Below are positions 26,417 through 41,957 of a stretch of DNA of 64,000 bases, in pieces (position 1 is the stretch's first letter; each line of letters begins with the position of its first letter). Under the pieces are notes generated by a model. The model made no database searches. It was not told the DNA's origin and worked only from the letters and a program-made list of their open reading frames with translations. Made by a program: the position numbers and the translations under genes. The stretch is from positions 2,790,001 to 2,854,000 of the forward strand of contig CP021221.1 of NCBI GenBank assembly GCA_003999685.1. The letters run 5' to 3'. This DNA is from Taiwanofungus camphoratus. Its lineage: Eukaryota > Basidiomycota > Agaricomycetes > Polyporales > Taiwanofungaceae.

Positions 26417-26576
26417 CTGCGCCGACGGGTCAAGCTTCGACAGACGACATCAGTTTGTCCGCAATCACTCGAGTCGGCGGTAGACAACGACAAGAACGTT
26501 GCAGCCTGGAGGAGGCGCTGCAAAAGCAAGTTTCAAACATTATATACATATGGACCAAGCTAGGTCCTTTGAATAT

Positions 26577-26659
26577 GGCTACCTGGCGCAATGGTAGCGC
26601 GTTTGGCTTCGATTGCCAGCGGCACCAAAAGGTTGCAGGTTCGAGTCCTGCGGTGGTCA
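26577..26659 (+). tRNA. tRNA-Arg (UCG) with 11-nt intron
   Basis: A cloverleaf folds cleanly: acceptor GGCTACC/GGTGGTC with discriminator A, D arm GCGC-AATGGTA-GCGC, anticodon stem TTTGG/CCAAA, T arm GCAGG-TTCGAGT-CCTGC. The anticodon loop CT-TCG-A is followed by the intron TTGCCAGCGGC one base 3' of the anticodon, then A, which is the standard intron site. The A box (TGGCGCAATGGTA) and B box (GGTTCGAGTCC) are intact and a T5 terminator follows near 26680. An alternative fold with a CGA (Ser) anticodon needs U37, so I reject it. This copy is identical to the one at 29461-29543. Confidence 0.9.
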
Positions 26660-26892
26660 TCCCAAATCGTTAACAGATTGTTTTTCTTCCGCCACCACGT
26701 GCAGTCTTGCAAACACATGGGACGCGACGCGCTTGGACTTCCAAGTTCTTAATATGTCAGGCTGTTCGTTTCACCTGTCTGTGTACGATTAACTGCTGTG
26801 TGCACCGTTGTCCTCTGATCACGAAACCAATTTCCCGTCAACGTGCATCTTATCGACTCTAGGTTCAGAACGTTGTCAGAGTCCTTGGATAT

Positions 26893-29460: not shown

Positions 29461-29543
29461 TGACCACCGCAGGACTCGAACCTGCAACCTTTTGGTGCCG
29501 CTGGCAATCGAAGCCAAACGCGCTACCATTGCGCCAGGTAGCC
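29461..29543 (-). tRNA. tRNA-Arg (UCG) with 11-nt intron, second copy
   Basis: The reverse complement is base-for-base identical to the tRNA at 26577-26659, including the 11-nt intron. A T5 terminator follows on the minus strand (near 29455). The flanks of the two copies differ, so the duplication is limited to the tRNA or is old outside it. It starts 206 bases after the CDC7 stop. Confidence 0.9.
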
Positions 29544-35260: not shown

Positions 35261-36312
35261 TCAGTATGGCTTGAACTTTCTCGACTGTTTCAACTTCTCT
35301 ACTTTCGCCTTGTCCTCCTCCCATTTTTTCTTCAGATCAATGAGTTCTACGTGTTTGCCGGTCAGCGTTCCCCATAGAACAGATCAGGATGTATACACTT
35401 GCCTTTCCGTTTCTTTTCGTGTACCTGGAAAGCATAGAATCCCTCCTTCTCCTTTTTCTCCTTCTTGTTCTTCCGATTTCTCTTCCCTCCGCCATCTCCA
35501 TGCTGTTCGTCCTGGAAGTTCTTGCTCGCCACCCCGACTCCTCCACCCAGTGTCTTGCCATACGCTCCGCCTCGGGTCACAAGTGTGAAACCATCTTCGT
35601 CCACTATTGCCTCTCCCATCTTGTACTTACTCTCTCGCTTCTTTTTCGCCTGTTCGTATTCAAACAGCTCCATCCACGAGTCCGCGTGCGCTTTCACAAC
35701 GTCGAGAGGTGGTCGGAGAGACTCCTGTAGAGCTGTATAGTGTGCAAGGCCGAAAGGCGCCGACGTGTCCATAGGCCATGGTCTCGCTTTGGAGGGGGGC
35801 GACAAGGCGCGCGTCAGTGAGGAGGTGTCAAGGAACACGACGTGTGCGGAACGGCCTGTTCGTCGCAGTCTCCTCAAAGTTGGTGCGGGTAATGGGACAA
35901 CACGGGGCGCAGCAACACCGGACGGTTGCCGCCTTTTACGGGGGCGTTCTTCTTGCTCATTCTCGTTGCCTGCAGCATTCTCGTCGTCCCCTTCTTCTAC
36001 CTCGCTATCGCTCTCCCCGCCTAGACCTTCGTCCAGACCTTCCGCATCACCATCAAACACGACTTTCTCTATAGTTCCACTGCTCTTGAAAAACAAGGTG
36101 ATCTCTCGTTCTGTCGCGTCTGGGGGGACATTGACCAAGAAAAGTGTCCGATCGTCCGGAAAAGCCACGCCCTTCCCTTTGGCATCTCGTTTTGCGTTCT
36201 TCGAGCCTGAATGTGCGCGCGCATACAGAATATGCGTTGACGTCTCTGAGTAGGAGACTGGGATAGGAGTAAAGCCTGCGACAGAAGATGGCAGCGCAAC
36301 AGACTGAGCCAT
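35261..36312 (-). CDS. RRP7: Ribosomal RNA-processing protein Rrp7
   Basis: A component of the small-subunit processome needed for 18S rRNA maturation in the nucleolus. Exon 1 (36312-35403) carries an RRM-like N-terminal fold (RTLFLVNVPPDATEREITLF), an acidic insert, and the conserved PDVVKAHADSWMELFEYEQA-type segment (DVVKAHADSWMELFEYE). It ends with GFYAFQVHEKKRK. Exon 2 (35346-35261) gives ELIDLKKKWEEDKAKVEKLK and the invariant end RKFKPY. The 56-base intron (35402-35347) starts with GCAAGT. The only GT donor nearby would bring a stop, so a GC-AG intron is required. The gene's 5' side is only 72 bases from the target-site repeat of a LINE insertion, which must have altered its promoter. 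Confidence 0.93.
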
Positions 36313-36384
36313 AGCTACTAGTTGGCGAAGATGATGCCAAATTTAATTAGCGCCCATATGTTACGGGATCACGTGGGTCCCTCC
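36313..36384 (-). promoter_or_regulatory. Remaining RRP7 proximal promoter with CACGTG
   Basis: These 72 bases are all that is left between the RRP7 start codon and the LINE target-site duplication. A palindromic CACGTG (E-box) lies at 36370-36375. It may bind a bHLH factor such as Cbf1-type proteins. That is an inference. Confidence 0.45.
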
Positions 36385-36395
36385 TCCCACCGCAC

Positions 36396-36397
<2 letters not shown>
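36385..36397. repeat. Target-site duplication, left copy (13 bp)
   Basis: TCCCACCGCACTC directly abuts the poly(T) end of the LINE and recurs exactly at 41182-41194, on its other side. Confidence 0.92.

Positions 36398-36424
<27 letters not shown>
36398..36424 (-). repeat. LINE poly(A) tail (27 A)
   Basis: An uninterrupted run of 27 T on the + strand, equal to a poly(A) tail at the 3' end of the minus-strand LINE. Confidence 0.95.
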
Positions 36425-36429
<5 letters not shown>

Positions 36430-36726
36430 CTACGGGTTTATACTCCATACGACGTAGGTACATGTAGAGTAATAATGATAATAAGTGGGCATCCGCGCCC
36501 TCATGAGCGGCACACCTACAGTTTTCGGTGACCTCGTTATGTGACGTGGGCATGTAATCCGACAAAGTCTGACAGGAAGCGTACAGTCGCCATATGACGC
36601 CATACCCGACCCCGACCCGTTTTTCACGTTCTGTGTGTTTGCTCGGCCCGGTAACCCGTTCTGTCAGCAAAACACTTAAGGAACTGAGTCTAGCCCTACA
36701 GGTTTCGGGCCTCAGTTGTCTGTTGG

Positions 36727-39700
36727 TTAGACGGGAGGGTCTTCGCGGATGCTAGGTTCCGCTATCCCCTCGTCTATCCAATTATGGTACATTTCGAACG
36801 CCTTTGCCTCGGCGTCGTACCACTCACAGAAATCCCGGTACTTTCCACCCAGGGCGGTGGTCATGCTAGGATCTAAATGTCGGTCCGCATGGAACCGCTG
36901 CCAGGCCGTTTGTCTTCCGACAGTGTGGCACATAAGACGTGCACGAGTGAACGTTCTCGTGCGCGCAGCTTCAGCTTCAAGCAGAGATTCTGCCAGAATC
37001 TCTGCCCAATCAAAGGTGGAGACCATCGGGTTGAGCCGAAGGAACTCCATGATGTCATCCGGGGTCCATCCCTTTTGTTCAGGGGGCCCCATCAGAAGCG
37101 GATCACGAGGACCCTGTTGGCGCTTCGTCCTGATCCAAAACGGACAGTCGAAGAGAACATGTTCCCTGGTTTCCTCTGCTCCGCATAAGCAGAGGTGAGG
37201 GCCAGGGATATTGAACCGAGAGCGGTATTCACCGCCAGGGAAATGGTTGGTAAGCACGCGGCATACGCGTGCCACCTCCTTGTTGGACTTGCCAGCTGCC
37301 TTCAAAACCCACGTGCCCTTGGCCGTAGTTCTGTGCAGCGGTAGGGCGTCTTCGGTTACTTTCCATAACCGTCGACCGCGATAACTGGGGTTGTCAACTA
37401 GTGTCCCCCACCGTTTTTTGACCCTTGCCTTGACCCGGGCAAGAGCCATCGATTGTGAGATGAATTCCGGTTGGGGATCATCCAATGCTTTCTTCGCGAG
37501 TTCATCGACGAACTCGTTCTGAAAAATGCCTTTATGGGAAGGAACCCAAAGAAGGACGATGCGTCGGCGTTCATCTGCATCGAGGAACGCTCGAACGTGT
37601 TGAGAAGCCATGATTGCCGCCATTTGTGACGATCCGACTTCCGGCTTAAAGATTTGGTTCAGTGCCGATTGGTTATTGGAACAGACCGTGAGGGTGGTGA
37701 TGTGGGCAGGGACGTCACGGACCGCTTCTCGCAGCCCACGCGCCAATGCCAACATCTCCGCATCGAAGCTCTGGACCTTGCCGGCCCCAAATCTTCCATG
37801 GGCAACGTGATCTTCCCCGTCAATGACGAGCCACGCGCTACCAGATCTTACTGTGGGTGCATTCTTATACGACCCATCAGTGAATAACATTCGCCCTTCT
37901 GGCTGGGCCAACTGGCGCCGGAATTCCAGCCACCAGGTGTACTCCAACCAGTCGGCGAATTCAGGAGAGCTTTTGTTTGGACCTTTTCCGTCCAAAAATA
38001 CCCGCTCGAAGCGATCAATGTACCGATCCACAACCCGATCGCCGGGCCGCGCCTCCGGGTGGAGTGGTGCAAAGTCTTCTGATGACTGCCTCCCGATGCG
38101 ATCTATGAACGTCATGGGAGTGACAGCCTGTTTTTTGCCACGTCGCGAGTTAAGCGGCCATGGTGCAGTGATATTGGTGACGTTGGTCGCCCAATATGGT
38201 GGAAGAACGGCCCTCATTGGGTGCCCTTCATGAACTCGCCGCGCTCTAAGTGCAGCTTTTTCCATGTACCGGTCGACCTGGATGCGGATGGGGACCAACC
38301 CACCCAACATCTCCATCGCCCCGATCGGTGTGGTCTTAAAGCAGCCGGTTATCCACCGAGCTGCTCTTGACTGAGCGGTCTGTAGTTCTTTTGCAGCCCA
38401 TTTGAGACCCTTCCACTGTGGGTTCCACCACAGTTGAGCGCCGTATAGCATCAACGGAACGACGTGCGCTATATAGAGCCGCCGCTTGTTGATAGGATGG
38501 AATCCGCGTGCCGAGTTACCGAGCATGCGGAGTGCATTGCACGTGCTGGCCGCCTTATTGGCGTAGAACCGCACGTGTGCGTGGAAGCTGAGCTTGGGGT
38601 CTAAAAAGAACCCAAGATAGTGCATTGTGTCCTTTGCTCTCAAAGTGACGTCATGTCCGTCGGTTTGGATAGTAAGATCCGGACCGAGGGGTCAGGAAGT
38701 CGAATACCCCTTCTGGCGCTTCCAGAAGTGCATCAGCTCCAGCTTGTCTCCTTCGACGCCTAAACCTAAACGGTTCAGGTCGCCTACGAGATTATGGAAA
38801 ACATCCGCCAAAATGGCGTTGTTCTTCAAAATAAGGGCTTGCGGGCTGTTGTCAACAGCCTTCGGCGAAGCCGCCATGATGAGACCATCGTCCACATAGA
38901 ACTGAGTCCCGGTTCGGCCCGGTTGTACCAAATGGACTGGTGCCCACTTGTGTATAACCGGTGCAATATAGATCCCGGATAGAATCGGGGATAAGCTAGA
39001 GCCCTGACCAACTCCGACATCAAAGTCAGATGGATCAGTCAGGGTACCGTTAAACAAGAATCGGGTTTTACGCCTGATCAAGTAATTTGCCATGAAATTA
39101 CAGAGCTTACTATTGAAGCCCTGCTTTCGCATGATTCCTACCAGTGCATCGTGATTGATGGACGGGTAGAATTGGGACACATCGAGCAATAGCACCGATG
39201 GGATAAGGTTGCGCGCCCATGCCTCTTTGACATTGTGCACAAGTTGAATACCAGCGTCAGTGGTGCTATGCTGCATAGCCCCACCGAACTGGCATGGGTG
39301 TAGGATTCCCCATTTCTGGGCATCCCACTGCATTTGCTTGGCAATGATCTTTTCGAACAATTTGCCGAAGCAGTTCAGCAAGCAGATAGGCCTGTAGGCC
39401 TTCGCTAGCGTATAATCTGGTTTGTTCGGTTTGGGTAGCACCACCGTAACAGACCGCTTAAAGACGCTCGGATAAACCTCGAAATCAAGGCAAGCGTTAT
39501 AATACGCGCGCAGCCATTGCCGCACGTGTATACCGAGATCGGTTTCGATGCCCTCCTCAGAGCGCTTGATCCGATCCATCATCCATTTAATCCACATCCA
39601 GTTCACGTGATCGGGACCGGGTGCGGATGTGTTGCTAGTGGATTTGAGATTCTCACGAATCTCAATCTCACTAATGTCTGGTAGAGTCAATTCCTCCCTT

Positions 39701-41151
39701 TGAGGAATTTCGTCTACGAATGACAGATCCACCGGCCGTGGGTTGGCAGGCGTGAACTGAGCTTGAAAAGCACGACTGAGCTCAGCCGCACTTTGAACTG
39801 GCGCACCATCAGCTTGCCGCAGCTGAATAGTGGCCTCTTGCCGTCTCGGCTTTGTCCATGCGACAAAGTCCGAGATCGATTGGGGATTGGATTCATCCAT
39901 GATCCGATCAAAGTGTGCTCGCTTCGCCCGCTTCGTGGCAAGGCGAAGTGTTGCACGTTGTTTATGCTGTTCGGACCGAAGTTCGGCGGCAAGATCGTAT
40001 GCGTCTGCAGTGGCCTGATCGCCAGGTCCCAACTGATGACGTATGTAGCGATACTGTCCCGACGCCGCACTGAGGCGGTGTTGGGTGTTTGCCAGCTTAG
40101 TGGCCGCATGGGAGCAAGCAGCATCCCACCACGACTTTGAACGTTTGGATGGTCGTTTTACTGACGAAAACTCCATCCATAATCGTTGGAGGTCTCGCTC
40201 TAGGCGATCCCCCATTCTTTCAACGCCTTGGGCGCTGCTGAAATGTGTAGGGTAATCGACGAATAATTTCGCTGTTGCCGTCACAAAATGTTGGGCCGCA
40301 TCTCCGGTACGAGGAATCCCCCGCGCCGGTTCTGGCTCAACTTCAATCGGCATCTCCCACCGCATGACCGCGTGGTCGCTGTTGTGACGATGTGACATGA
40401 GCACATGAAGGTCTTGGCCTTCATAGTACACTGGGTCGATCCACACCAAGTCTATGACTCCGGGTGTGAGAGCGATGTTGTGGGAACGCCAAGTGACTGG
40501 ACCGTCCTGGGCGTTCATCAAAACCAAATCGAGTTCGGCCTGGGCCAGCTCGATGAGGCGGTTGGAATCAGCGTAGTGCGGAGGCCGCACCCGAGATCCC
40601 GCAGCTCGTGTGTCCCACAATGGGTGGTGGAGATTGAAATCCCCGCACATACACGCAATGGGTGGAAGCGTGTGTACACGTGTTTCCAAATATCGGACTG
40701 CATCAAAGGTGGTGCTGTCGTTGTACACGTTCAGGACATTAAAGTCTCCGGACGGAAGCTTAAGCGCTACCATAAGGCAATCCTTATGGGAGACGCTGTG
40801 GGTGACAACTTGCGGAGAGGCCGAAGCCCACCGCTTGTTGACATAGATTGCTACCCGGGAATCTTTCGATGCCCCGAGGCACTTAAACGAGGCATGGGCA
40901 GACGTATTCTCATACGCTTCCCCGTCCCGTGACTTAGCTGAGGCCACATCCTTGATGCGGCCCCAGAATATCTCCTGGACGCAGATAATGTCGGCGTCCC
41001 TATGTCTCTCAAGCAGGATGCCCGTATTCTCCGCAGATTTCTGGACATTCGCACTTATGCATGTGAGTGCGAGCCTGGTAGGTTCGTCTCTCGGATTGTC
41101 GCCATCAGCCGTTGGGCTGGGCGTACGGGAGGGGTCCGCTTCCACCACCAT
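36727..41151 (-). pseudogene. LINE ORF2 polyprotein with one in-frame stop
   Basis: The frame is open from Met at 41151 to 36727 except for one TGA at 38692-38694, placed just after the RT palm (KLELMHFWKRQKGYSTS). The same frame resumes at once with PLGPDLTIQTDG and RYLGF-type HYLGFFLDPKLSFHAHVRF. Endonuclease residues are visible: CVQEIFW (Glu), CGDFNLHHPLWD, HRHNSDHAVM. RT: PICLLNCFGKLFEKI, VGVGQGSSLSPILSGIY and FYVDDG (catalytic Asp pair). RNase H: LFTDGSYK, SFDAEMLALARGL, CSNNQSAL (Asn where Asp is usual) and VPSHKGIFQNEFVDELA. The C-terminus has CLCGAEETREHVLFDC, a CCHC finger. The stop probably makes this copy inactive unless read through. Confidence 0.9.
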
Positions 41152-41181
41152 GGGGGAATCGGGCCGTTCATTATGTTGTGA

Positions 41182-41194
41182 TCCCACCGCACTC
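41182..41194. repeat. Target-site duplication, right copy (13 bp)
   Basis: TCCCACCGCACTC, identical to 36385-36397, marks the 5' boundary of the LINE. The open frame running past it to a Met at 41220 is host flank, not element. Confidence 0.92.
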
Positions 41195-41253
41195 AGGACG
41201 TGCAAACATTGAAACTTCAACGTTCAAGTCCTATACTGAGTAATGAGCAAGAG

Positions 41254-41957
41254 ATGATTTCTACTCGTCCTTACACTTGGTCTTACGATTCATCCTTCTC
41301 ACCTGGGACGACAGCGCTCGTTATTATCGACATGCAGAACGACTGCAAGTTCCGTTCTTGACCCTACGTAAAGGCCTACCATGAAACGTCTGGGTTTGAT
41401 GTCTAGTCTGCTTGGAATCCGGCTACCTGGCACAGGGATACTCAATTGCGAGTACCCGTGCAGTAGTTCCACAAATCCCCCTCTTAGAAGCATTTCGGCA
41501 TCATGGCTTCCCTATCTTCCACACGCGCGAGGGACACTACCCGGATCTCTCCACGCTCTCCACGCGAGCTGTCTCACTCCAGAAACAACCCAAGTAAGCT
41601 GGGTATCGCATCCACGACATCGTAGATGTGCTGTGCCCGGGCGAGCCCATCGTGGACAAGCCGGGCAAGTCGGCGTTCGCGTACACGGACCTTGAGCTGC
41701 TGCTGAAAGTATGCGGCGTGCGGAACCTGGTGGTGTGCGGAGTGACCACGGATGTGTGTGTCGCGTCAACGATGCGCGAGGCGAGTGATCGGGGATACGA
41801 CTGTCTACTTGTGGAAGACGCGGCGGGTGCGAGCGTGGAGAGCCTTCACCGGGCGGCAGTAGAAATAGTGCAGACTGAAGGAGGTATAATTGGAGCAGTC
41901 GCGACCACGGTGGAGGTCGTTGAAGGCCTCAGAAGCTGGTCAGAACAGACACACTGA
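41254..41957 (+). pseudogene. Decayed isochorismatase-family (cysteine hydrolase) gene
   Basis: The N-terminal part (MISTRPYTWSYDSSF, TALVIIDMQND with the usual Asp) and the C-terminal part (EPIVDKPGKSAF, LVVCGVTTDVCVASTMREAS with the usual Cys, and ASDRGYDCLLVEDA) clearly belong to isochorismatase-like hydrolases. The pieces do not join into one frame. A TGA at 41359 falls within PYVKAYHETSGFDV-type sequence, a TAG follows shortly, and the middle (LLEAFRHHGFPIFHTREGHY) lies in a third frame. The stretch that normally reads GPLGRLLIRGEPGHDI is mostly missing near 41600. Introns could explain one break but not all. The 3' part is undisturbed, so decay is recent. The LINE lies 60 bases upstream. 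Confidence 0.8.

Follow-up and report, generated by a model that had tools for sequence, protein, structure and literature searches.

RRP7 is a ribosome-building gene that is essential in yeast, and in Taiwanofungus camphoratus a LINE lies 85 bp from its start codon. The locus raises the question of how this arrangement came about and from which DNA RRP7 is now expressed. Judged from sequence, the preferred reading (probability about 0.7) is that a member of a LINE family inserted by target-primed reverse transcription and was left truncated, and that RRP7 has stayed functional from the 85-bp remnant of its upstream DNA. Among the papers listed in a literature search, judged by title and opening of the abstract, none described this locus or a LINE in an RRP7 promoter. 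The stretch of DNA analysed (64 kb, hereafter the window) comes from contig 2 of an assembly of 33.2 Mb in 15 contigs, which was searched as a whole. The compactness of its genes, their short introns, and the type of LINE fit a fungal genome.

The LINE is a 4784-bp, 5'-truncated non-LTR retrotransposon copy on the minus strand (36398..41181). Its 27-bp poly(A) tail (36398..36424, minus strand; poly-T on the plus strand) is the only run of A or T of at least 10 in the window. An exact target-site duplication (TSD; 13/13) of TCCCACCGCACTC brackets the element, with one copy abutting the A tail on the RRP7 side (36385..36397) and the other, on the side of the isochorismatase-like neighbour (41182..41194), abutting the opposite end of the LINE at 41181. 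These are the only two occurrences of the 13-mer in the window, and across the assembly it occurs four times, including the two that flank this LINE. The original prediction of an exact 13-bp repeat around a 4784-bp LINE ending in 27 A was therefore correct, with junctions that abut 36398 and 41181, as was the direction assigned to the element, since its domains lie on the minus strand like RRP7.

Removal of the LINE leaves 144 bp (72 + 13 + 59) between the ATG of RRP7 (36312, minus strand) and that of the neighbour (41254, plus strand), the spacing that had been predicted. The remnant upstream DNA of RRP7 measures 72 bp (36313..36384), with CACGTG at 36370-36375 and an AT-rich segment at 36339-36349; the 72-base remnant with its box was thus recovered as expected, but 85 bp separate the ATG from the poly-A tract, as one copy of the 13-mer has to be added. 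Another 59 bp (41195..41253) remain upstream of the neighbour. A search for an empty site, as the joined flanks with up to 3 mismatches, found none in this assembly.

On its minus strand, the LINE encodes an APE endonuclease, a reverse transcriptase (RT), and an RNase H, in that order. The RT matched PF00078 (E 1.5e-19), and chains of R2 and LINE-1 ORF2 were among its 10 solved matches; the APE-like endonuclease upstream of it matched PF14529 (5.4e-9) and PF03372 (9.6e-8), and the RNase H downstream matched PF00075 (3.7e-9). An RNase H domain after the RT is a Tad1/I-like feature. The endonuclease and RT occupy the first part of the reading frame (38692..41151, minus strand), which an in-frame stop at 38692-38694 closes. 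The second part, counted from its first ATG (36727..38625, minus strand), holds the RNase H and a weak match to zf-RVT (zinc-binding) that falls under the Pfam cut-off. Both parts belong to one frame interrupted by this single stop, and a frameshift between them was thereby ruled out. At its 5' end, the window copy lacks 551 nt, comprising a leader of 53 nt and codons 1-166; the missing N-terminal part, taken from longer copies, matched no Pfam family. The prediction had treated the LINE as a whole element, which was not borne out, given the 551 missing nucleotides and the in-frame stop, and the copy is evidently dead, 5'-truncated, and interrupted.

The LINE is repeated in the genome. From 182 first-look candidates, 40 places were scored, the window copy included, and 20 other copies with their flanks (L012-L031, the 20 best of the 39 places other than the window copy itself) were compared. 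The copies have a common 3' end and a variable 5' end. At their 5' ends, L012, L014, L017, L020, and L025 reach beyond the first base of the window copy, and all of these except L025 begin at one common boundary 551 nt further 5', each with its own TSD of 14-15 bp. This longer form measures about 5335 bp and contains one 1650-codon frame, uninterrupted in three of the four copies. TSDs of 10-16 bp were present at 11 of the 21 copies examined, and scans at the other 10 (those with another 5' module, rearranged copies, L016, and L026) detected none; pure A tails of at least 20 were seen in 15 of 21. The RT, the APE endonuclease, the A tail, the TSD, and the shared 3' end with variable 5' ends together mark the element, as far as its sequence tells, as an APE-type non-LTR retrotransposon. 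Six of the 20 copies (L018, L021, L023, L024, L028, and L029) start to match the window copy only at element nucleotide 115 or 127 and carry another, mutually similar sequence 5' of the match, pointing to two putative 5' modules or recombinant subfamilies. At L031, another copy opens with its 5' boundary sequence 15 bases into the 3' flank, so that one LINE copy sits at the head of another.

The gene facing the A tail encodes RRP7 with 331 aa (35261..36312, minus strand) after removal of a proposed 56-nt GC-AG intron (35347-35402). The spliced product matches PF12923 over positions 3-120 of 120 (E 6.5e-30) as well as PF17799, the RRM-like N domain (E 1.2e-8); the unspliced frame covers only positions 3-92 of the C-terminal domain. 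It is the sole match in the 33.2-Mb assembly, in which no second copy was found. With the N domain and the full C-terminal domain present, the gene is recognizable as an intact, single-copy RRP7 orthologue. The intact frame and single copy of the predicted gene were upheld; its model gained an intron, and the stop codon moved from 35362 to 35261-35263.

The divergent neighbour, predicted to be an isochorismatase gene, does belong to that superfamily but reads as a biuret-hydrolase-like pseudogene (41254..41957, plus strand). The superfamily domain was recognized in its 3' piece (PF00857, 1.2e-24), the best solved matches were 6azo and 6xjm, and a proposed GC-AG intron (41345-41406) restores the conserved domain start. 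The reading frame is interrupted by an in-frame stop at 41595-41597, and the region around it has 18 codons, stop included, against 31 residues in 6azo (115-145 of 262), leaving about 13 codons missing. Because just one disabling region was seen, the pseudogenization may be recent. The bidirectional promoter that the 144 bp had been predicted to form would thus have a pseudogene on its other side. The only other genome match of the 3' piece is distant, with 37% identity over residues 8-76. In both genes flanking the LINE, the intron is best read as GC-AG (GCAAGT...TAG), restoring the conserved protein, and this genome may have many such introns. Elsewhere in the window, two tRNA-Ser genes with anticodon CGA occupy opposite strands some 2.8 kb from each other (26576-26662, plus; 29461-29543, minus).

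The truncated anatomy, the TSD, and the A tail, viewed in the light of known LINE biology, suggest target-primed reverse transcription with an early stop of cDNA synthesis. An APE-type LINE would have integrated at a GAGTGC site within the 144-bp intergenic space, and reverse transcription would have stopped 551 nt before the 5' end of the RNA, leaving a dead copy that points at RRP7. The site itself was compared across 40 insertions (the window, 20 large loci, and 19 short ones, including L034, whose flank begins inside an interrupted tail). The first base after the tail was G in 27 of 40 (P 5e-6, A set aside) and the fourth was T in 20 of 40 (P 2e-4), a family pattern that the GAGTGC of the window fits. 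A Pfam scan took in 30 of the 83 open reading frames listed in the flanks, drawn from 16 of the 20 loci, and matched seven of them to a family. Among the resulting eight neighbours, RRP7 included, the LINE lies on the 5' side of the gene in five (window, L015, L017, L027, and L030) and on the 3' side in three (L012, L019, and L026), with gene ends being approximate, and these eight showed no clear preference for upstream positions. Of these eight, only the window has a LINE that both lies upstream of its neighbour and points at it. A gene finder based on codon bias, with 16 open reading frames of the window as its training set, discriminated poorly and was dropped.

The insertion had also been called young, a description that stood only in part. 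Identity between the window copy and the 20 others is 91.7-97.3% over the last 870 nt, and the closest sampled copies are 95-97% identical to it. The comparison of nine copies gave it 56 private changes in 4554 ungapped columns (1.23%), of which the coding ones comprise 34 synonymous, 18 non-synonymous, and 1 stop. The neutral expectation is 16.5 (sd 3.3) synonymous changes, and the observed 34 was reached in none of 2000 simulations; the shared, and hence transmitted, biallelic differences number 221 synonymous versus 45 non-synonymous. With the neutral share obtained as a mixture from the private versus shared synonymous ratios, a procedure that ignores recombination and recurrent changes, the post-insertion share of the window copy was estimated at 0.36 (0.15-0.62) of the 1.23%, which would put divergence since insertion at roughly 0.2-0.8% (point value 0.44%). 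As the private changes are mostly synonymous, much of the divergence of this copy probably predates its insertion.

The same estimate gave neutral shares of -0.02 to 0.64 for the eight other copies, and the 0.44% of the window copy is among the highest of the nine, together with L012 and L020. By this measure, the window copy appears no younger than the eight siblings compared. Its A tail is of little use as an age clue because most family members have long pure tails; even L029, which has diverged furthest among the nine, has at least 20 pure A. The synonymous excess thus speaks for youth, but the tail is uninformative, the nearest copies reach at most 97% identity, and the siblings are not older, so that a recent insertion is weakly supported. 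An old insertion whose TSD and tail were unusually well kept is unlikely: the private changes, a terminal branch of 2.4% (last 870 nt) to 3.4% (nine-copy tree, about 4.5 kb), and a post-insertion divergence near the top of the range would all fit it, but the synonymous excess indicates that much of the change arose while the lineage was still replicating, and both the exact TSD and the pure 27-A tail argue against great age.

Expression of RRP7 from the 85-bp remnant is the most likely outcome of the insertion. The core promoter would lie in these 85 bp, CACGTG included. Poly(dA:dT) tracts disfavour nucleosomes, and the 27-bp tail, now the upstream edge of the remnant, would help to exclude them if it has any effect; such an edge makes remnant-driven expression the likeliest arrangement. 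Among Brix and CBF family loci (10 loci, about eight genes, most gene starts unsettled), CACGTG stands 99 bp ahead of a plausible start in one gene, and in a second it precedes the first ATG of a long frame by 258 bp. A literature search on CACGTG as a ribosome-biogenesis promoter box found nothing on such a link.

RRP7 might instead be driven by a promoter in the 3' region of the LINE or by read-through transcripts starting within it, as the two share one direction and the tail ends 85 bp from the ATG. This is doubtful: LINE promoters usually lie in the 5' leader, which is missing here, the 3' end of a LINE would tend to stop transcripts there, and a compact fungal promoter fits in 85 bp. About equally doubtful is that the LINE recruits silencing and leaves RRP7 as a weakened, barely tolerated allele. 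In Pleurotus ostreatus, around half of the genes that have a transposable element (TE) no more than 1 kb away on either side are repressed (PMC4905642), and unaffected expression of RRP7 should accordingly not be assumed. Genes near TEs are repressed in fungi with cytosine methylation (PMC4905642), and the 23 CpG-type changes among the 56 private ones, the largest share of the nine copies, would fit methylation; RRP7 is nevertheless single copy and intact, which argues against a crippled allele.

A still less probable idea departs from CACGTG itself, which is found no more than 70 bp from the tail at five of the 40 insertions (window, L015, L016, L030, and L046). With the window excluded, as its insertion had prompted the test, the box was found near the tail at 4 of 39 insertions where 0.65 would be expected (P 0.0045), or 0.51 when the window's own rate is used (P 0.002); on the 11 resolved 5' sides, none was found within 70 bp. 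This candidate enrichment on the tail side is a lead from small numbers. The LINE might favour open promoters by CACGTG, with its A tail facing the box and the poly(dA:dT) left behind keeping the promoter open. If this were true, insertions such as that at RRP7 would be tolerated, or would even strengthen a promoter, because of how the LINE integrates. Finally, an assembly artefact that wrongly joined a repeat to the promoter is hardly credible: a large repeat family could invite such an error, but the TSD is exact at both joints and the start of the target site matches the family pattern.

As a LINE insertion in front of a conserved gene, well preserved but 5'-truncated, the locus is ordinary, and the present evidence adds little to known TE biology. 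It is nonetheless a clean natural case in which a LINE stands only 85 bp away from where a gene essential in yeast begins to be translated, beside a pseudogene. It could reveal the minimum of upstream DNA on which a ribosome-assembly gene of a fungus can run, and whether the A tail of a LINE can serve as a poly(dA:dT) promoter element.

The LINE may belong with Tad1, Inkcap, Deceiver, or another named fungal clade, the likeness being one of domains (RNase H after RT). It shares the APE-RT-RNase H order, the A tail, the variable TSD, and 5' truncation with fungal Tad1 and related APE-type clades (clade names as in PMC3411680 and PMC9674265). Unlike Tad1-type LINEs, the longer copies here contain one 1650-codon frame without a separate Pfam-recognized ORF1. 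In Marasmius oreades, new LINE insertions were observed that are 5'-truncated to variable lengths (PMC9674265), showing variable 5' ends in a basidiomycete as here; those insertions were caught as events, whereas the present LINE is known from one assembly. The allele pairs of P. ostreatus with measured repression mostly involve Gypsy elements (PMC4905642), in contrast to the LINE of this locus, known from sequence alone, but in both cases a TE and a start codon are less than 1 kb apart.
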